The notes under the pieces were generated by a model. It saw only the letters and a program-made list of their open reading frames with translations. It was not told the origin of the DNA and did not search any database. A stretch of DNA of 64,000 bases from Actinomycetospora lemnae. Its GTDB lineage: Bacteria > Actinomycetota > Actinomycetes > Mycobacteriales > Pseudonocardiaceae. Positions 8,269 to 60,834 of the stretch are shown here, piece after piece; the stretch's first letter is position 1, and the number at the start of each line of letters is the position of its first letter. The stretch lies in NCBI RefSeq assembly GCF_028737315.1, contig NZ_JAQZAO010000002.1, positions 434,001-498,000 on the forward strand, in the 5' to 3' direction. A program made the translations under genes and the position numbers.

Positions 8269-8712
8269 ATGTCGCTCACCGCCCCGGCCCCGACCGCCAC
8301 CACCGACGCCGGCGCCTCCCCCGTCCGCGCCCGGGCGACCGCCCGCCGCCGACGGCGGACGCTCGGCGTCGTCGCCACGCTCGTCGTGGCGCTCGCGGTC
8401 TGGCTCGTCGGCCGTCTCGCCGGCGCCGACTACTGGATCGCCGACAGCCAGGGCACGGTCCGCATCGACGCCCTGGTCACCACGCAGGTCACCGTGGTCC
8501 TCGGCCTGGCCGGCTGGGCCGTGCTCGCCCTGCTCGAGCGCCTCACCCGGTACGGCACGGCGATCTGGACCGTGCTCGCCACGGTGATCGTGGCCGCCTC
8601 GATGATCCCGGTCTTCCTGGTGGAGGCCACCACCGCGACCCGCGTCGCCCTCGTCGCGGTCCACCTCGCCGTCGGCGCCCTCATCCCCTTCTTCGTGCGC
8701 GCCCGCTCCTGA
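8269..8712 (+). CDS. Four-helix membrane protein (DUF6069-like)
   Basis: Protein of 147 residues with a basic N-terminus (RARATARRRRR) and four predicted membrane helices: LGVVATLVVALAVWLVG, VTVVLGLAGWAVLALL, IWTVLATVIVAASMIPVFL and VALVAVHLAVGALIPFFV. The pattern fits the actinobacterial DUF6069 family. The ATG at 8269 has the ribosome site CGGAGGT. It is divergent from tetR and followed after 27 bp by a VOC gene, so the two may form an operon under TetR control. Function unknown. Confidence 0.75.
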   Translation: MSLTAPAPTATTDAGASPVRARATARRRRRTLGVVATLVVALAVWLVGRLAGADYWIADSQGTVRIDALVTTQVTVVLGLAGWAVLALLERLTRYGTAIWTVLATVIVAASMIPVFLVEATTATRVALVAVHLAVGALIPFFVRARS

Positions 8713-8739
8713 CCAGCCCCGACACCCCTGGAGACCACC

Positions 8740-9156
8740 GTGCGATCGATCTTCGTCAACCTGCCCGTCGCCGACGTCGCCACCAGCCGCGCCTTCTTCG
8801 GCGCCCTCGGCTTCACGGTCAACGAGCAGTTCAGCGACGACAGCACCGCCTGCCTCGTCATCGAGCAGAACGTCTTCGCGATGCTCCAGACGACCGAGCG
8901 CTTCGGCGACTTCGTCGTCGGCGAGATCGCCGACGCCCAGAAGACCACCGAGGTCCTCCTCGCCCTCTCCGCCGACAGCCGCGAGGAGGTCGACCGGCTC
9001 AAGGCCGCCGCACTCGCCCACGGCGGGGGCGAGTGGAAGGAGGCCCAGGACCACGGATTCATGTACGGCTGCTCGTTCACCGACCCGGATGGTCACGTCT
9101 GGGAGGTCGTGTGGATGGACCCGGCCGTCGCCTCCGGGGAGAAGGACCCCTCCTGA
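8740..9156 (+). CDS. VOC family protein (glyoxalase/dioxygenase fold)
   Basis: Protein of 138 residues beginning at GTG 8740 (ribosome site TGGAGA). It has the VOC repeats: FVNLPVADVATSRAFFGALGF at the N-terminus, and GFMYGCSFTDPDGHVWEVVW near the end, where the final W-E-V-V-W strand is usual for this subgroup. Potential metal ligands are present but not diagnostic. It follows the DUF6069-like gene by 27 bp and is terminated by a strong hairpin. Confidence 0.85.
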   Translation: MRSIFVNLPVADVATSRAFFGALGFTVNEQFSDDSTACLVIEQNVFAMLQTTERFGDFVVGEIADAQKTTEVLLALSADSREEVDRLKAAALAHGGGEWKEAQDHGFMYGCSFTDPDGHVWEVVWMDPAVASGEKDPS

Positions 9157-9173
9157 CCCCCGATCGGCCGTCC

Positions 9174-9208
9174 GGTACCCGCTCCCGTGTCGCACGGGGG
9201 CGGGTGCC
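9174..9208 (+). terminator. Strong hairpin after the VOC gene
   Basis: GGTACCCGCTCCCGTG pairs almost perfectly with CACGGGGGCGGGTGCC around a short loop. It has no U-tract, as is common in high-GC actinobacteria, and stands 17 bp after the VOC stop. Confidence 0.55.
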
Positions 9209-9221
9209 GTCGTGCGCGCAC

Positions 9222-9227
9222 TAGGGT
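9222..9227 (+). promoter_or_regulatory. TAGGGT -10 element, predicted leaderless start at 9236
   Basis: TAGGGT is followed by exactly 8 bases and then the GTG start of the DUF402 gene, placing the expected transcription start at the start codon. Confidence 0.5.
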
Positions 9228-9235
9228 CACGGCCC

Positions 9236-9742
9236 GTGGGCATCCACGCGCCGAAGACCGAGACCTTCGACGTCGCGGCCCGCACCAACACCGACCCCAA
9301 AGGGTTCGTGCGGGCGGTCGACGTCTACCGCGAGGAGACGTTCGGCCTCTACGTGTCGCGCCCGATGCCCGACCACCCCACGCTGACGCACCTGCGCTCG
9401 TGGCTGCTGCCCGCACTCGGCATCCGCGTCACCGACTTCTCCTGGAAGCCCGGCGAGGAGCGGATGCAGGACCACTACATCGACATCGTCGACGTCACCC
9501 GCGACGGGACGACGTGGTGGACCGAGGACCACTACGTCGACCTCGTCGTGCACACCGGCGAGCGCACCGAGGTGCTCGACCTCGACGAGCTCGTCGAGGC
9601 CGTCGCCGCCGGGTTGCTCGACCCCGAGCGCGCCGAACGGGCGCTCACGACGAGTCACCGCACCCTCGCCGGACTCGCGGAGCACGGCCACGACCTGGAG
9701 CGATGGCTGGCCCCGCAGGACGTCACCCTGACGTGGACGTGA
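9236..9742 (+). CDS. DUF402 domain protein
   Basis: Protein of 168 residues starting at a GTG that directly follows a predicted -10 box, so it is probably translated from a leaderless mRNA. The DUF402 signature is clear: HYIDIVDVTRDGTTWWTEDH, then YVDLVVHTGERTEVLDLDEL and a C-terminal helical tail with AHRTL-type spacing (TSHRTLAGLAEHGHDLERWL). Members of this fold include nucleoside-diphosphate hydrolases and FomD-like proteins, but the exact activity here is unknown. A related second gene follows at 9830. Confidence 0.85.
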   Translation: MGIHAPKTETFDVAARTNTDPKGFVRAVDVYREETFGLYVSRPMPDHPTLTHLRSWLLPALGIRVTDFSWKPGEERMQDHYIDIVDVTRDGTTWWTEDHYVDLVVHTGERTEVLDLDELVEAVAAGLLDPERAERALTTSHRTLAGLAEHGHDLERWLAPQDVTLTWT

Positions 9743-9815
9743 TGCGCATCACAGCGTGAATGACAGGTTTGCTATTCGGGTAGGGGTCGCCGCCGATACC
9801 CCCTGACGGGTGTCC

Positions 9816-9821
9816 TAGGGT
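9816..9821 (+). promoter_or_regulatory. TAGGGT -10 element, predicted leaderless start at 9830
   Basis: TAGGGT, then 8 bases, then GTG: the same geometry as the promoter at 9222. Confidence 0.5.
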
Positions 9822-9829
9822 CCTCCGCC

Positions 9830-10357
9830 GTGAGCCCCGTCGTCTCCCGCCAGCTGGTCGAGGTCGTCGACACCCAGACGGCTACCCGCACCCACCTCCT
9901 CGCGCCCGACCAGGTCCTCGAGCAGGCGCTCGACCGATGGCGCGTCACCCCGTGGGGCCTGCGGACGACGGTGCTGAGCCCCGAGGACCCGTTCGTGCTG
10001 GCCGAGACCTGTTGGTACGTCGCCGACCACGGCCTGCGCCTGCGCCGGCGGCTGCCGCGCGACACCGACGCCGCCGAGGCCACCACCGAGATCGGCGCCG
10101 TGCGCATCGCCGTCGACGGCGCGCAGTGGCGCTGCACCGACCTCCTGCTCGGCCTCGAGGTCGTCCCCGGGCGGCCGGCCCGTGTCGTCCACGACGCCGA
10201 CTTCGCCGCCGCCGTCGCCGGGGGCGTCCTCGCGCCCGCGGACGCCGACGAGGCCATGAGCACGGTGCACCGCGTGCTCGGCGAGCTCGTCGACACCCGC
10301 CACGACCTCGGAACGTGGACCGACTCGCTCGGCCTCGGGTCGCTGGACCGGGCCTGA
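9830..10357 (+). CDS. DUF402-like protein, second paralogue
   Basis: Protein of 175 residues. It shares the overall plan of the preceding DUF402 protein: an N-terminal barrel-like part (RVTPWGLRTTVLSPEDPFVL), a middle strand pair (GAQWRCTDLLLGLEVVPG) and the same C-terminal helix ending (MSTVHRVLGELVDTRHDLGTW). The catalytic-looking acidic residues of the first copy are only partly kept. It converges on coaE with 65 bp between. A gene of unknown function also stands between coaE and uvrB in mycobacteria. Function unknown. Confidence 0.75.
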   Translation: MSPVVSRQLVEVVDTQTATRTHLLAPDQVLEQALDRWRVTPWGLRTTVLSPEDPFVLAETCWYVADHGLRLRRRLPRDTDAAEATTEIGAVRIAVDGAQWRCTDLLLGLEVVPGRPARVVHDADFAAAVAGGVLAPADADEAMSTVHRVLGELVDTRHDLGTWTDSLGLGSLDRA

Positions 10358-51000: not shown

Positions 51001-52149
51001 TCACCGTAGCCCGCTCGGGCCCAGATCGTGGACCGCGAGCGACCCGGCGTCGCGCTCGGCCTTCCCGCCGGCCGCGCCGCCGTTGCGGGTGAGCTCCGCG
51101 AGCATCCGGTAGGTCAGGCTGCGCGGCCGCAGGCCCAGCGCACCGGCGGTGTCCTCGTCGAGGCGCTCGACGAGGTTCTTCGTCACCAGGCGCTGACCCC
51201 CGGTGGCCACCTGCTCGACGCGGGCGCACTCGTTGACCTCGTCGCCCAGCGCCGTGACCTCCAGGCGCCCGCCGGTGACGATCTGCCCGATGAACAGGTC
51301 GGCGCCCCAGTGCGCGCCGATGTTCATCAGGCAGTCCTGGCGGTGGATCTCCGCCCCGCTCTCGGCGAGGTCCGCGACGACGTCGGCCACGACGCCCGGG
51401 AGCTCCTGGACCGTCCGCAGCGCCGCGCTCGCCGCCGCCGCGTCGGACCCGTGGGAGTCGCTGAGGAAGTACGCGCTCGCCCCGTCGCCCGCGTGCTTGC
51501 CGACGATCCCGCCGTGGCGCCCGACGAGCTCGTCGAACGCCGTCGTCACGCCCCGGACCAGCTCGAAGTACACCGGCGTCGGCAGCCGCCGCGACAGCGG
51601 GCCGGAGCCGTCGATGTCGGCGAACACCACGGCGGCCGGGCGCTGGGCGGGCGCGGACAGGTCCGCCATCCGCGTGAACATCGCCTCGTCGCCCTCGCTG
51701 ACCAGCGCCAGCACCCGCGCCGGCAGCAGCGGCGCGTAGATCAGCACCGCGCCCAGCGGGCTCCCGTCGGGATGGCGCAGCGTCACCCCGAGCATGCCGA
51801 CGCCGCGCCGGCGCCCGCCGACCCGCAGGTCCAGCGCGAGCACCCACAGCGGCGCCGTCTCCGGGTCGGCGAGGCGCGGGTGCAGCTCGTGACGCAACGT
51901 CTCGGCGGCCTCGGCGGTCAGCAGGTCGTGCCAGACCTCGCGTTCGAGGACCTCGTCGAGGTGGTGCCCGATCCCGAGGTCGGTCTCCTCGTCGACGCCG
52001 GCCAGCAGCTGCATCTGCTCGGACACCCACGCCAGGCGGCCCTCGCCGTCGACGACCTGCGCGGCGGTGCGCCCCGCGGCCAGCGCGTCGACGACCTCGC
52101 CCAGCCGCCCGTCCGGTGCCGACGCCGCCTGCGGTGCTCCCTCCCCCAC
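51001..52149 (-). CDS. Class III adenylate/guanylate cyclase with sensory N-terminus
   Basis: Protein of 382 residues. The N-terminal ~150 residues resemble a PAS sensor (VVDALAAGRTAAQVVDGEG, LAWVSEQMQLLAG). The catalytic domain starts at AVVFADIDGSGPLSRRL with one metal aspartate; GGIVGKHAGDGASAYF carries the second, and ALGDEVNECARVEQVATGG the substrate-recognition side. It probably produces cAMP or cGMP. The GTG at 52149 is exactly 8 bases after TAGGGT (52158-52163), whose TAG is also the stop of the upstream ArsR gene. Downstream of arsR by 11 bp. Confidence 0.87.
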   Translation of the reverse strand: MGEGAPQAASAPDGRLGEVVDALAAGRTAAQVVDGEGRLAWVSEQMQLLAGVDEETDLGIGHHLDEVLEREVWHDLLTAEAAETLRHELHPRLADPETAPLWVLALDLRVGGRRRGVGMLGVTLRHPDGSPLGAVLIYAPLLPARVLALVSEGDEAMFTRMADLSAPAQRPAAVVFADIDGSGPLSRRLPTPVYFELVRGVTTAFDELVGRHGGIVGKHAGDGASAYFLSDSHGSDAAAASAALRTVQELPGVVADVVADLAESGAEIHRQDCLMNIGAHWGADLFIGQIVTGGRLEVTALGDEVNECARVEQVATGGQRLVTKNLVERLDEDTAGALGLRPRSLTYRMLAELTRNGGAAGGKAERDAGSLAVHDLGPSGLR

Positions 52150-52157
52150 GGCGCCGG

Positions 52158-52163
52158 ACCCTA
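52158..52163 (-). promoter_or_regulatory. TAGGGT -10 element for the cyclase, leaderless
   Basis: TAGGGT-N8-GTG on the minus strand. The element overlaps the TAG stop of the ArsR gene. Confidence 0.5.
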
Positions 52164-52529
52164 CGGCGCCTCCGGCGCGGGGTGCGCGGTCATCGCCCGA
52201 CGGTGTCCCGCGTCGTGCACGAGCACGTCGAGCAGCTCGCCGACGTGGTGGTCCCGCGCACGCGAGAGGACGTGACGTCCGGCACGCCGCTGGGTGACGA
52301 GGCCCGCCAGGCGGAGCTTCGCGAGGTGCTGCGAGATCGCCGGCCGCGTCGCCCCGAGCCGCTCGGCGAGCGTCGAGACGTCCAGCTCATCGCCGCAGAG
52401 CAGCCACAACATCCGCAACCGCGTCGGGTCGGCGAGCATCCGCAGGCCCTCGACCGCCACGTCGACGGACGCCGGATCGGGCAGACGGGCGAACGCGCGC
52501 GGGCCGGCGACGTTGTCAGTTGCGTACAC
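52161..52529 (-). CDS. ArsR/SmtB-family metal-sensor repressor
   Basis: Protein of 122 residues with the winged helix AEGLRMLADPTRLRMLWLL-type start and recognition region LDVSTLAERLGATRPAISQH. The last helix contains DHHVGELLDVLVHDAGH: an Asp, a His two residues later and a His sixteen residues later, close to the alpha5 zinc/cobalt/nickel site of SmtB, CzrA and NmtR (the i+13 ligand is Asp instead of His). The GTG start at 52529 (VYATDNVAG) lies inside an operator-like palindrome. It diverges from the nicotianamine synthase gene, its probable target. Confidence 0.85.
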   Translation of the reverse strand: MYATDNVAGPRAFARLPDPASVDVAVEGLRMLADPTRLRMLWLLCGDELDVSTLAERLGATRPAISQHLAKLRLAGLVTQRRAGRHVLSRARDHHVGELLDVLVHDAGHRRAMTAHPAPEAP

Positions 52530-52536
52530 GTTTACG
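52523..52536. promoter_or_regulatory. Putative ArsR operator
   Basis: CGTACACGTTTACG, a palindrome with one mismatched pair, overlapping the arsR start and 77 bp upstream of the nicotianamine synthase ATG. Position suits control of both directions. Confidence 0.5.
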
Positions 52537-52612
52537 TATCGTGCCAGGGCGACAGATCGTGTTCCATGGGTGACCGGCCGACGACGCCCCGCCCGGTGGA
52601 GGTCCACTCCCG

Positions 52613-53551
52613 ATGAGCACCCCGTTCGACCGTCCTGCCGCCCGACCCGCCCGCAGCCGTGCCGAACGCCCGCTCGACCTCCCCAGCCGGTTGCCGGTGC
52701 GGGCCTGCACCCCCGAGCGTCCCGCCGCGGACGCGGGTGCGCACGCACCCGCCGCGCTCCTCGCCGAGATCCTCGCCCTGCACGACGCGCTCGTCGCCGC
52801 CCCGACGCTCGAGCCCGGCCCGGGCACCGACGCGCTGTTCACCCGCCTCGTCGGCCTGGCCGTGGCCCCGCGCCCGGGGCACGTCGTCGACGCCGTCCTC
52901 GCCGACCCGGAGCTCACCGGCCGGCTCCCCGACCTGCGGGCGCGATGTTCGGCGGGCGAGTACGCCCTGGAGCGCGCCTGGGCCCGCCGCGTCCTGGCCG
53001 CCGACGACCCCGCCGCCGCGCTCGAGCGCTTCCCCTACCTGCAGAACTACCGCGACCTGACCCGCATCGAGTACCACGCCGTCGCCGGCCACGCCCCGCT
53101 CGCGCCGCGGCGGGCCCTGTTCGTCGGCGCCGGACCCCTGCCCCTCTCGGCGCTCCTGCTCGCCCGCCACGGCGTCACCGTGGACGCGGTCGACGTCGAC
53201 GCCGAGGCGGTCGCGCTCGGCGACGCGGTGGCCCGGGCCCTCGGCGACGACGTGACGGTCCGCGAGGGCGACGTGCTCGACCTCGACGACCTCGCCGACT
53301 ACGACCTCGTCTGCGTCGCCGCCCTCGTCGGCCTCGACCCCGACGCGAAGACCACGGCCCTCGCCCACGTCCGGGCGCAGATGCGCCCCGGGGCCACCGT
53401 GCTGGCGCGCAGCGCGCACTCCCTGCGCGGCCTGCTCTACCCCGTGCTCGACGTCGCCGACGACGGGCTCGGCGGGCTGGAGCCGCTGGCCGTCCTGCAC
53501 CCGCACACCGACGTCGTCAACTCCGTGGTGCTCGCCCGCGTGCCCGCCTGA
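52613..53551 (+). CDS. Nicotianamine synthase family protein
   Basis: Protein of 312 residues. The NAS signature is present in order: FPYLQNYRDLTRIEYHAVA at about residues 141-159, then RALFVGAGPLPLSALLLARH (about 168-187), the methyltransferase-like SAM-binding core, and VDAVDVDAEAVALGDAVARA. NAS enzymes condense aminobutyrate units from SAM to make nicotianamine-type metal chelators (plants, archaea) or the staphylopine intermediate (CntL). ATG 52613. It starts a run of three genes and is divergent from a metal sensor. Product and metal unknown; no opine dehydrogenase lies in the window. Confidence 0.85.
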   Translation: MSTPFDRPAARPARSRAERPLDLPSRLPVRACTPERPAADAGAHAPAALLAEILALHDALVAAPTLEPGPGTDALFTRLVGLAVAPRPGHVVDAVLADPELTGRLPDLRARCSAGEYALERAWARRVLAADDPAAALERFPYLQNYRDLTRIEYHAVAGHAPLAPRRALFVGAGPLPLSALLLARHGVTVDAVDVDAEAVALGDAVARALGDDVTVREGDVLDLDDLADYDLVCVAALVGLDPDAKTTALAHVRAQMRPGATVLARSAHSLRGLLYPVLDVADDGLGGLEPLAVLHPHTDVVNSVVLARVPA

Positions 53552-53576
53552 CGCGCGCGCAGGGCACCCTGGTGAC

Positions 53577-54143
53577 GTGCCCACCACCCGCACCGGCCCG
53601 CACCCCGTCGCGGTGGGCGCGGTCGTGCTGCTCGTGGCGGTGATCGCCGCCGCGCTCTGGAACTCCGACGAGTCGGGGACGGGCGCGCGCCAGGTCGGCG
53701 AGGCCGGCGGCGAGACCGTCGCGCCGGCCGCCGCGCTCCCCCCGCCCGTGCCCGGCGCGTCGTGCGCCCCGACGATCACCAACCCCGGCGGCGACAACAA
53801 CTACCGCGAGGACGCCCCGCTCGACGTGCCGCTGGGCCGCGGGCTGGTCATCACCGGGACCGTCCGCGACACCGCCTGCCGCCCGCTGCCGGGCGTGCCC
53901 GTGCAGGTGTGGCTGCAGACCGCGCTCGGCAGCGAGCGGGAGAACCGCACGACCGTGCTCACGGGTCCCGACGGCCGCTACCGCGTCGCCAGCGACCCGG
54001 CCGTCGCCCAGTTCGGCGAGCCCAACGTCCACGTCGCCCACGACCCCGACGAGAGCCCGTGGCGGTCGGTCTGGCAGCGCCACGTCCTGCACCCGGAGGA
54101 CACCCTCGCCGTCGTCGACCTGACCCTGGCACCGGTGTCGTGA
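53577..54143 (+). CDS. Secreted/anchored beta-sandwich protein (intradiol dioxygenase/transthyretin-like)
   Basis: Protein of 188 residues. The N-terminus has one signal anchor (VAVGAVVLLVAVIAAALWN) and then a linker. The outer domain is a beta sandwich: GLVITGTVRDTACRPLPGVP, VQVWLQTALGSERENRTTVL and DGRYRVASDPAVAQFGEPNV, with histidines in NVHVAHDP and WQRHVLHP. This is the pattern of intradiol dioxygenase or carboxypeptidase-regulatory-like folds; the usual pair of metal-binding Tyr is not certain. It lies 25 bp after the NAS gene and overlaps the next gene (GTGA). Extracellular metal or carrier role is inference. Confidence 0.65.
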   Translation: MPTTRTGPHPVAVGAVVLLVAVIAAALWNSDESGTGARQVGEAGGETVAPAAALPPPVPGASCAPTITNPGGDNNYREDAPLDVPLGRGLVITGTVRDTACRPLPGVPVQVWLQTALGSERENRTTVLTGPDGRYRVASDPAVAQFGEPNVHVAHDPDESPWRSVWQRHVLHPEDTLAVVDLTLAPVS

Positions 54144-54802
54144 GGGGCCTCGTCGCGGTCGCCGCGCTCGGCGGCGCGCTGCTCGTCACCCTCGCGCTGG
54201 CGGCTCCGCACCTCGCCCAGGCCTCGCCGGTGCTCGTGGTCTCGACGCTGGCGGCGTGCGTCGCGGTCGCCGCCCTCGCCGTCCAGCCGTGGCTGACGCG
54301 GCGCCGGGTGGGCGCGCACGTCCGGGTCGGCGGGATCGTCGCCGCGCTCGTGGCCGTGCACGTGGTCGCGCTGTTCGTCGAGAGTCCCGACGACGCGCTC
54401 TACTCCATGTCGCTCGACGGGCCGACGCGGGCCCGCATGGCGCTGTTCGCGACGGTGCTGCTCGTCGTCGTCACGCTGCTCGGGCTGCTGCGGCGGCGTC
54501 TGCCCTGGTCGGTGGCCACCTGGCGGTTCGTGCACGGGAGCCTCGCCGGGCTCGTCGTCGTGCTCGGCGTGGGCCACGCGGTGCTCATCCAGGGCGCGCT
54601 CGACGGGTGGGGCACGGCGGTGCTCGTCGCCCTCGGCGGGCTCGCGGCGGTGGGCGTCGTCGTGCGGCTGGTCCGGGTCCTGCGGACCCCGCCGCCGGGA
54701 GGCGGAGCGCAGCGGAGCCCGACCACGCAGCCCACGCAGGAGGGTGACGCCACCGCCCACGATCGTGGGCAGGTCCGGCCGAGGGACGAGGCCCACGGCT
54801 AG
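54140..54802 (+). CDS. Six-helix ferric-reductase-like membrane protein
   Basis: Protein of 220 residues. Six membrane helices are predicted, for example GALLVTLALAAPHLAQASP, VGGIVAALVAVHVVALFVE, RMALFATVLLVVVTLLGLL and VHGSLAGLVVVLGVGHAVLI. Histidines in the third and fifth helices (AVHVV, FVHGS, VGHAV) suit heme coordination as in ferric reductase transmembrane domains; no FAD/NADPH domain is fused. The last ~35 residues are a hydrophilic tail built from a mini-repeat (GGAQRSPTT) and a 16-bp palindrome. Start overlaps the preceding stop. Likely moves electrons to reduce a metal or its complex. Confidence 0.7.
   Translation: MRGLVAVAALGGALLVTLALAAPHLAQASPVLVVSTLAACVAVAALAVQPWLTRRRVGAHVRVGGIVAALVAVHVVALFVESPDDALYSMSLDGPTRARMALFATVLLVVVTLLGLLRRRLPWSVATWRFVHGSLAGLVVVLGVGHAVLIQGALDGWGTAVLVALGGLAAVGVVVRLVRVLRTPPPGGGAQRSPTTQPTQEGDATAHDRGQVRPRDEAHG
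54701..54724 (+). repeat. Intragenic mini-repeat, copy 4
   Basis: GGCGGAGCGCAGCGGAGCCC and GACC in the C-terminal tail of the ferric-reductase-like gene (GGAQRSPT). Confidence 0.55.
54755..54770. repeat. 16-bp perfect palindrome inside coding sequence
   Basis: GCCCACGATCGTGGGC in the same C-terminal tail (AHDRGQ). It shares CGATCGTGGG with the start of the hairpin-ended repeat family. Confidence 0.5.

Positions 54803-55137: not shown

Positions 55138-60834
<5,697 letters not shown>

Follow-up and report, generated by a model that had tools for sequence, protein, structure and literature searches.

The locus lies in a 64,000-nucleotide stretch of Actinomycetospora DNA (the window, in whose numbering all positions are given) and begins with two genes that face away from each other. 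The gene on the reverse strand (52161..52529, GTG start at 52529) encodes an ArsR/SmtB-family sensor of 122 residues, and the gene on the forward strand (52613..53551) a nicotianamine synthase (NAS) of 312 amino acids, preceded by the ribosome-binding-site-like sequence GTGGAGG (52596..52602, forward strand), which recurs unchanged in 13 of 15 genus sequences, with L022 and L024 as the exceptions. A putative promoter-operator-like block (52513..52542) reads TTGTCA, 18 bases, and TATCGT toward NAS, and holds an imperfect palindrome at 52521-52538. Two further forward-strand genes follow NAS, namely p3 (53577..54143), encoding a membrane-anchored TTR/intradiol-dioxygenase-like beta-sandwich protein, and p4 (54140..54802), encoding a membrane domain of the ferric-reductase type that stands alone and carries four invariant histidines in two pairs. 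On the other side, a cyclase-like gene lies 11 bases from the ArsR gene on the same strand of the window. A sequence-only reading of this DNA had placed the genes at the same positions, with ArsR divergent from a NAS-family gene and a GTGA overlap between p3 and p4; the positions hold, both families are confirmed by profile, and the overlap is present at 54140-54143. The core of the locus is a two-gene divergon of ArsR and NAS, and p3-p4 looks like a separate module.

The sensor and the enzyme

The sensor matches the metalloregulator ArsR/SmtB profile NF033788 at 85.7 bits (cut-off 55) as well as the Pfam profile HTH_5 (PF01022), and among its relatives of solved structure SmtB is the best and NmtR the fourth in the list. 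Residues D105, H106, H107, H117, D118, and H121 (P0001 numbering) are kept in all 15 genus orthologues, among which no conserved Cys pair was found. The Asp, His (+2), and His (+16) that had been noticed in the last helix are indeed there, as Asp105, His107, and His121 of helix 5, and the list has to be extended by Asp118 at +13. The ligands of NmtR are given as D91, H93, H104, and H107 together with the N-terminus (PMC7055735), and its helix-5 quartet D-H-H-H (+2, +13, +16) is not reproduced in the Actinomycetospora protein, which belongs to the same family as NmtR, SmtB, and CzrA and has the Asp, His (+2), and His (+16) in common with NmtR, but carries Asp for His at +13. It may nevertheless still work like an NmtR-type sensor, and since its third ligand position is Asp118 and not the His of NmtR, no particular metal follows from the comparison. 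The two also differ in what lies beside or under them, NmtR controlling an efflux pump (PMC7055735) and this ArsR having a chelator-making enzyme as its neighbor. Ni-bound NmtR lets go of DNA, and ArsR-type sensors such as NmtR turn genes on at metal surplus (PMC7055735).

The NAS protein matches PF03059 at 195 bits (cut-off 27.1) over profile positions 6-270 of 276, and the solved archaeal NAS 3fpe at an E value of 1.6e-14, with E120 and Y146 falling on E81 and Y107 of the archaeal thermonicotianamine synthase MtNAS in a gapless alignment. This catalytic Glu and Tyr, whose roles are described for E77 and Y106 of AtNAS1 (PMC10248798), are present in 42/42 NAS rows that cover them, and the plant-type Glu in 41 of those 42; within the genus the latter is E116 (AtNAS1 E73) in all 14 full rows. 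The plant VGMD motif reads VGLD in four, VGLA in four, and AGLD or AGLE in six of the 14 genus rows, the NAS of the window having VGLD. Like plant and fungal NAS (AtNAS1, PF03059), to whose family it belongs, the protein has both catalytic residues and the plant-type Glu; it differs from them in being bacterial, in its adjoining ArsR-type gene, in the partly kept VGMD motif, and in that its product is a putative one. By sequence, the closest solved structures are those of MtNAS (3fpe, 3fpf, 3o31), in which, by contrast, Gly replaces the plant-type Glu and the VGMD region shows a gap. Judged by its family and active-site residues, the enzyme very probably makes nicotianamine or a near analogue.

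CntL of the staphylopine-type systems is a distant relative of NAS, and its profile NF033601 gives 19.8 bits against a cut-off of 350. Those systems combine CntL with CntM and transporters; here no transporters are conserved beside NAS, and an ArsR-type gene is found there instead. The staphylopine dehydrogenase CntM (PF10100) was matched in none of 21 genomes, with none in the source genome and 12 genus relatives, and equally in none of 14 control genomes. At the genus loci examined, NAS has no conserved dedicated exporter or importer as its neighbor, and this absence of a conserved exporter or metallophore importer is compatible with an internal chelator but no proof of one.

Shared promoter-like region and conservation of the pair

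NAS is found in 16 of the 18 genomes of the genus, and a divergent ArsR gene adjoins it at all 15 loci with a readable flank; in the 16th genome the contig begins inside NAS, so that the ArsR side is unreadable. Outside the genus, ArsR lies within 2 kb at 2 of 48 NAS loci (L123 in the same direction, L133 divergent), the flank being shorter than 2 kb on one side at seven of the 48. The annotated ArsR of an archaeal Halocatena plasmid was discarded as a further partner of NAS, with a distance of ~5 kb and four listed genes between the two. The genus NAS genes form one group in the tree (support 98/99) that comprises two clades, 52-54% identical, and the ArsR pairing runs through both. As the genus loci share one origin, the 15 of 15 do not represent 15 independent events. 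The pair occurs in different genomic settings, lying beside the cyclase-like gene and usually also a carboxylase gene in clade A, beside the block and tRNA-Leu that are found at 29.4-37.2 kb in the window in five clade B genomes, and in a third setting in G015. In G011, NAS is a wreck and no ArsR match is left in an 18-kb stretch. The claim that an alpha5-type ArsR is divergently paired with a real NAS-family enzyme is supported by these data, and ArsR very probably controls NAS.

The promoter-operator-like block overlies both the NAS promoter-like sequence and the ArsR start. Identity between the two deep clades is 0.68 in the intervals 52514-52533 and 52524-52543, and lower in the flanking ones, at 0.39-0.41 (52484-52513) and 0.22-0.36 (52544-52573). 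The value of 0.68 is not the maximum of the region, since ArsR coding DNA reaches up to 0.89, and the ribosome-binding-site intervals (0.59) and early NAS (0.66) come close to it. TANNNT is present in 14 of the 15 genus sequences, and the −35-like hexamer is kept, as TTGTC[AG], in 9/15 only. GTG 52529-52527 is the only start common to all 15 genus ArsR genes, and its equivalent is the only possible start in L023; the frame is open further upstream, to a GTG at 52748. The GCA codon that directly follows the ArsR start region is conserved in 15/15, although GCA is rare nearby, making up 2 of the 240 Ala codons of the neighboring carboxylase gene.

With this common start, the palindrome that had been described over the ArsR start is confirmed in its position. 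It pairs at 7 of 9 positions and is matched in quality in 34% of 400 random sequences of 120 bases with similar composition, for which reason it was rejected as proof on its own; likewise, the region's best inverted repeat was equalled or beaten in 46/60. The palindrome is not significant by itself, and it is its conservation that makes it noteworthy. The operator-like site occurs a single time in the source genome at up to 3 mismatches, and the idea of a wider ArsR regulon was dropped for want of a second such site.

The p3-p4 module

The predicted model of p3 (mean pLDDT 67.5) consists of one N-terminal helix (residues 10-32) and a beta-sandwich, in line with its earlier description as a membrane-anchored beta-sandwich protein, and the protein scores 18.8 bits against the intradiol dioxygenase profile PF00775, below the cut-off of 27.3. 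Outside the genus, weak domain-level matches to p3 were seen in at least 6 of 196 other genomes of the class sample, with at most 17 candidates scored per genome. The histidine-containing membrane protein p4 carries the pairs His60/His74 and His132/His146, invariant in 11 aligned rows. Two His pairs 14 residues apart are the spacing rule of ferric-reductase-type membrane domains. No Pfam profile, PF01794 included, matches p4 at E values up to 1; its distant relative L069 matches PF01794 at 40.4 bits, and p4 is a remote relative of the membrane portion of longer proteins of the ferric-reductase type.

The sequence-only reading had joined sensor, chelator enzyme, secreted sandwich protein, and heme-type reductase into one system that acts jointly on extracellular metal. 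The GTGA overlap and the order ArsR-NAS-p3-p4, seen in 8 of the 16 NAS-bearing genus genomes (split over contig ends in two of the eight), would speak for it. The relatives, however, separate p3-p4 from ArsR-NAS in both directions: p3-p4 survives in G011 together with a ruined NAS that has no adjoining ArsR, ArsR-NAS is retained without any match to p3-p4 in G012 and G015, and p3-p4 sits elsewhere in five genomes of the second clade (G001, G003, G007, G014, G016). The four-gene system is therefore largely refuted and very improbable, and because p3-p4 is kept or lost independently of NAS, nothing supports metal reduction outside the membrane as a function of the chelator locus.

A metal-surplus model and its alternatives

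In the model proposed here, metal-free ArsR would sit on the 52513-52542 block and keep NAS, and probably its own gene, shut off. A divalent metal in surplus, with Zn, Ni, or Co as the likeliest candidates, would fill the helix-5 site formed by D105, H107, D118, and H121, upon which the repressor, by analogy with NmtR and its relatives, should leave the DNA and allow NAS to be made. The enzyme would then join aminobutyrate units of S-adenosylmethionine into nicotianamine or a close analogue, as its family and active-site residues suggest, and this product would bind and buffer the surplus metal inside the cell, with the downstream p3-p4 being a different, independently inherited module. For this reading as a whole we estimate a probability of roughly 0.45. 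Of its parts, a divalent metal is the likely signal of ArsR, and induction by metal surplus, argued from analogy, is favored with somewhat less assurance. The wider notion of a plant-type NAS serving as a metal-surplus response, in which an unusual D-H-D-H ArsR induces nicotianamine as an internal buffer and not as a secreted scavenger, is put forward more tentatively than the model itself. Staphylopine-type systems are induced by starvation, and an ArsR-type repressor predicts the opposite, namely induction by metal surplus.

An uptake role, in which a nicotianamine-type compound is exported to retrieve metal, with transporters encoded elsewhere and ArsR fine-tuning the supply, would agree with CntL, the bacterial relative that makes uptake metallophores (PMC7438024), and with several gene neighborhoods: the nickel importer NicT lies 3' of NAS in G015 (gap 169 bases), zinc-uptake ABC genes lie near NAS in G704, in whose class NAS is found in 0 of 65 other genomes, and in 9 of the 12 NAS-bearing genomes of genus g5 NAS is preceded, a few genes upstream, by a DtxR-family gene. 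These neighbors are no less compatible with uptake or general homeostasis than with detoxification. On the other hand, no transporter is a constant neighbor of NAS at the genus loci examined, NmtR-like sensors turn genes on at surplus (PMC7055735), and CntM has no match, although the control genomes gave none either. NicO genes, detected among 13 genus genomes searched in the source genome, G001, G003, G005, G007, G009 (NAS-less), and G012, were not found in the NAS-bearing G002, G006, and G010. On balance, uptake appears unlikely. Nickel as the particular metal was also considered and set aside, the case for it consisting of the single NicT instance and the scattered NicO genes.

It is less probable still that ArsR responds to a non-metal cue (redox, sulfite, or a metabolite) and that NAS has a non-metal role such as supplying an azetidine or aminobutyrate building block. 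The ArsR family does include such sensors, BigR is among the below-cut-off matches of this ArsR, NAS chemistry is related to azetidine formation (PMC11794875), and in family f34 an ATP-grasp ligase gene adjoins NAS in 18/18 loci examined (by Pfam on one), which suggests that NAS products can be built on further. Yet the metal-type helix-5 residues are invariant in 15/15 orthologues, which lack a conserved Cys pair, and no further biosynthesis gene is conserved beside NAS through both genus clades. That ArsR and NAS are chance neighbors, with ArsR acting on its own gene or on the cyclase-like gene downstream and NAS having nothing to do with it, could appeal to the 11-base spacing noted above; it is scarcely credible given that clade B and G015 have NAS beside ArsR without the cyclase-like gene there, that the pair is kept through moves, and that the conserved block overlies the NAS promoter-like sequence.

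Should a plant-type NAS indeed stand under a surplus-type sensor, nicotianamine chemistry would also serve bacterial metal buffering, as a bacterial counterpart of the role of nicotianamine in plants, and the locus would offer a simple bacterial setting in which to study an enzyme reportedly acquired by plants from microbes (PMC12454661). That gene-transfer study (Nat Commun 2025) lists actinobacteria among the holders of NAS and uses them to root the NAS tree; the regulation and bacterial gene context of NAS are not described in the parts of it drawn on here. Gene-context mapping of bacterial NAS-type zincophores began from CntM and states that CntM-less systems would be missed (PMC7438024). 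In the open-licence PMC literature, neither an ArsR-paired NAS nor nicotianamine in Actinomycetospora was found as a subject. Across the Actinomycetota the settings of NAS differ widely, the gene lying by ArsR, by an ATP-grasp ligase gene, or near a DtxR-type gene.

The nicotianamine synthase

The gene at 52613-53551 (plus strand) encodes a protein of 312 residues, which scores 195 bits against the Pfam profile of nicotianamine synthase (NAS; cut-off 27.1) and matches the archaeal NAS structures by sequence at about 1e-14. In the alignment to the archaeal structure (MtNAS), E120 is aligned with E81 and Y146 with Y107, with no gap between them. The counterparts of these residues in the Arabidopsis enzyme, E77 and Y106, are reported as essential in the available part of a study of plant NAS (PMC10248798), in which E73 and the 206-VGMD-209 motif are also described as required, C69 as dispensable, and E73 and VGMD as conserved in plants and not kept in the microbial NAS-like proteins that the study compared. 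At the positions of C69, E73 and VGMD, the NAS of the window has C112, E116 and VGLD, whereas MtNAS shows Tyr, Gly and a gap.

Across 45 aligned NAS rows, E120 and Y146 are both present in 42/42 rows spanning them and E116 in 41 of these (the exception being L017), two of the 42, L104 and L105, being a single reading frame; this count excludes the fragments L019, L020 and L131, and L132 gave no match. The VGLD motif is not strict within the genus, where it reads VGLD in 4/14 rows, VGLA in 4/14, and AGLD or AGLE in 6/14. Judged by these sequence features, the gene is a genuine NAS, the product of which is probably nicotianamine or a near analogue.

Pairing with ArsR across the genus

The sequence-only reading had placed four genes here, and on checking, their coordinates proved correct: ArsR (52161-52529, minus strand), the divergent NAS, and the plus-strand genes p3 (53577-54143) and p4 (54140-54802). 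The genome containing them measures 6.06 Mb and belongs to Actinomycetospora, four named records of which carry a NAS gene with 75-83% identity to that of the window. NAS was found in 16 of 18 genomes of the genus (its own and 17 others), and ArsR is divergent from and adjoins it in all 15 loci with a readable flank, G013 being left out of this count as its contig begins within NAS. In the tree, the NAS genes of the genus form one group (support 98/99) that splits into two clades, between which identity is 52-54% for NAS and 65-70% for ArsR. The pair occupies three settings, namely that of the window in clade A, a position by the genes found at 29.4-37.2 kb of the window, including tRNA-Leu, in five clade B genomes, and a separate location in genome G015. 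Since the genus loci are not independent, the pairing is best taken as one origin maintained through several moves, not as fifteen events. In genome G011 NAS is only a ruin and no ArsR match was found across a stretch of 18 kb; the remnant (L078, about 9460-9777) lies between a truncated cyclase-like gene and an intact p3-p4 pair.

Both NAS enzymes and ArsR sensors are familiar on their own, and among the openly licensed papers searched none has a title concerned with an ArsR-paired NAS; what appears to be new is the pairing, which would imply that a plant-type NAS is controlled by metal surplus.

The sensor and its candidate operator

Profile search assigns the ArsR protein to the metalloregulator ArsR/SmtB subfamily; SmtB is its best solved relative, and NmtR aligns with it through helix 5. 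The Asp, His (+2) and His (+16) proposed from sequence for this helix are indeed there as D105, H107 and H121, which together with D118 and the adjoining H106 and H117 are present in 15/15 genus orthologues. The nickel ligands of NmtR are given, in the part of the source available, as D91, H93, H104, H107, H3 and the N-terminus (PMC7055735), so that Asp at the third position (D118) sets the window's ArsR apart from the D-H-H-H set of NmtR.

The GTG at 52529 is the sole ArsR start common to all 15 genus genes, and in locus L023 a stop three codons upstream leaves no alternative, which places the start within the conserved block at 52513-52542. Identity between the clades is 68% in the windows 52514-52533 and 52524-52543, against 39-41% (52484-52513) and 22-36% (52544-52573) in the flanking windows and 3-4% just beyond. 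The block is not the maximum of the region, ArsR coding windows reaching 89%, early NAS 66% and the ribosome-binding site 59%. Given the start at 52529, about half of it is noncoding, and the GCA codon just inside that start, a rare one (2/240 Ala codons in the adjoining carboxylase gene), is kept in 15/15 sequences, which argues for a DNA element.

As for its form, the palindrome proposed over the ArsR start (52521-52538, 18 bases) does overlie the GTG, but its 7/9 pairs are unremarkable by chance alone. A promoter-like sequence directed toward NAS, TTGTCA-18-TATCGT, spans the block, with TANNNT retained in 14/15 sequences (not in G004) and TTGTC[AG] in 9/15; the pattern TTGNCN-17 to 19-TANNNT occurs in 0.25% of 2000 random sequences, a frequency that is too favorable because the pattern was chosen after the site was known. 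A search of the whole A. lemnae genome, allowing up to 3 mismatches, revealed no further operator-like site.

Direction of control and other neighborhoods

NmtR is counted among the sensors in which metal binding switches genes on (PMC7055735, in the part available). Repressors of the NmtR type let go of DNA once metal is bound; by analogy, metal binding would take the ArsR repressor off the DNA, and NAS would be induced by metal surplus. This direction of control is the least certain step of the explanation, and several NAS neighborhoods elsewhere speak against it, as they include importers and a DtxR-type regulator. In G015, one member of the genus, the nickel transporter NicT (L030:10317-11453; 538.7 bits, cut-off 450) lies downstream of NAS. 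In genus g5, 9 of the 12 NAS-bearing genomes have a DtxR-family gene near NAS (Pfam run on one); at L168:6021-6797 and eight more loci this metalloregulator and a TetR-type gene lie upstream of NAS, the L168 protein also having a FeoA domain. In G704, of another class, ZnuA and ABC-3 zinc-uptake genes lie beyond a transposase-like gene, a label that is an interpretation of the translated sequence.

Among 48 NAS loci beyond the genus, seven of them with less than 2 kb of sequence on one side, a search by two ArsR queries (E 1e-4) placed an ArsR within 2 kb of NAS in two, and the G704 locus (L133, 3999-11266) is one of these. A metallopeptidase M24 gene is divergent from NAS there and is followed by ArsR, itself divergent relative to NAS, about 1 kb off, and bearing the full Asp, His, His, His at the helix-5 positions. 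It represents a second ArsR-NAS-metal neighborhood, seen in a single genome. In the other (L123), ArsR runs in the same direction as NAS, about 1.1 kb off.

In family f34, 18 of whose 20 NAS genomes were taken in, 18/18 loci (L106-L123) have a gene for an ATP-grasp ligase less than 2 kb from NAS (Pfam run on L110, where 8616-9890 gives PF13535 and LAL_C2), and the NAS rows have RSAR in place of the RSAH of Actinomycetospora. Both features suggest that the NAS family is put to different uses, in f34 likely in a pathway elaborating a nicotianamine-type product further.

Within the window, p3 encodes a membrane-anchored TTR/dioxygenase-like protein and overlaps p4, a stand-alone four-His ferric-reductase-type membrane domain; the two are possibly a heme protein and its extracytoplasmic partner, and the pair (53577-54802) is confined to Actinomycetospora among the genomes searched with p3. 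A nucleotide-cyclase-like gene (51001-52149, on the strand of ArsR; PF00211, weak) lies 11 bases past ArsR and in clade B does not adjoin it. At 55138-60834, a single protein of 1898 residues fuses biotin carboxylase, biotin carrier and carboxyltransferase, with 92-98% identity over about its first 600 residues among the genus loci compared.
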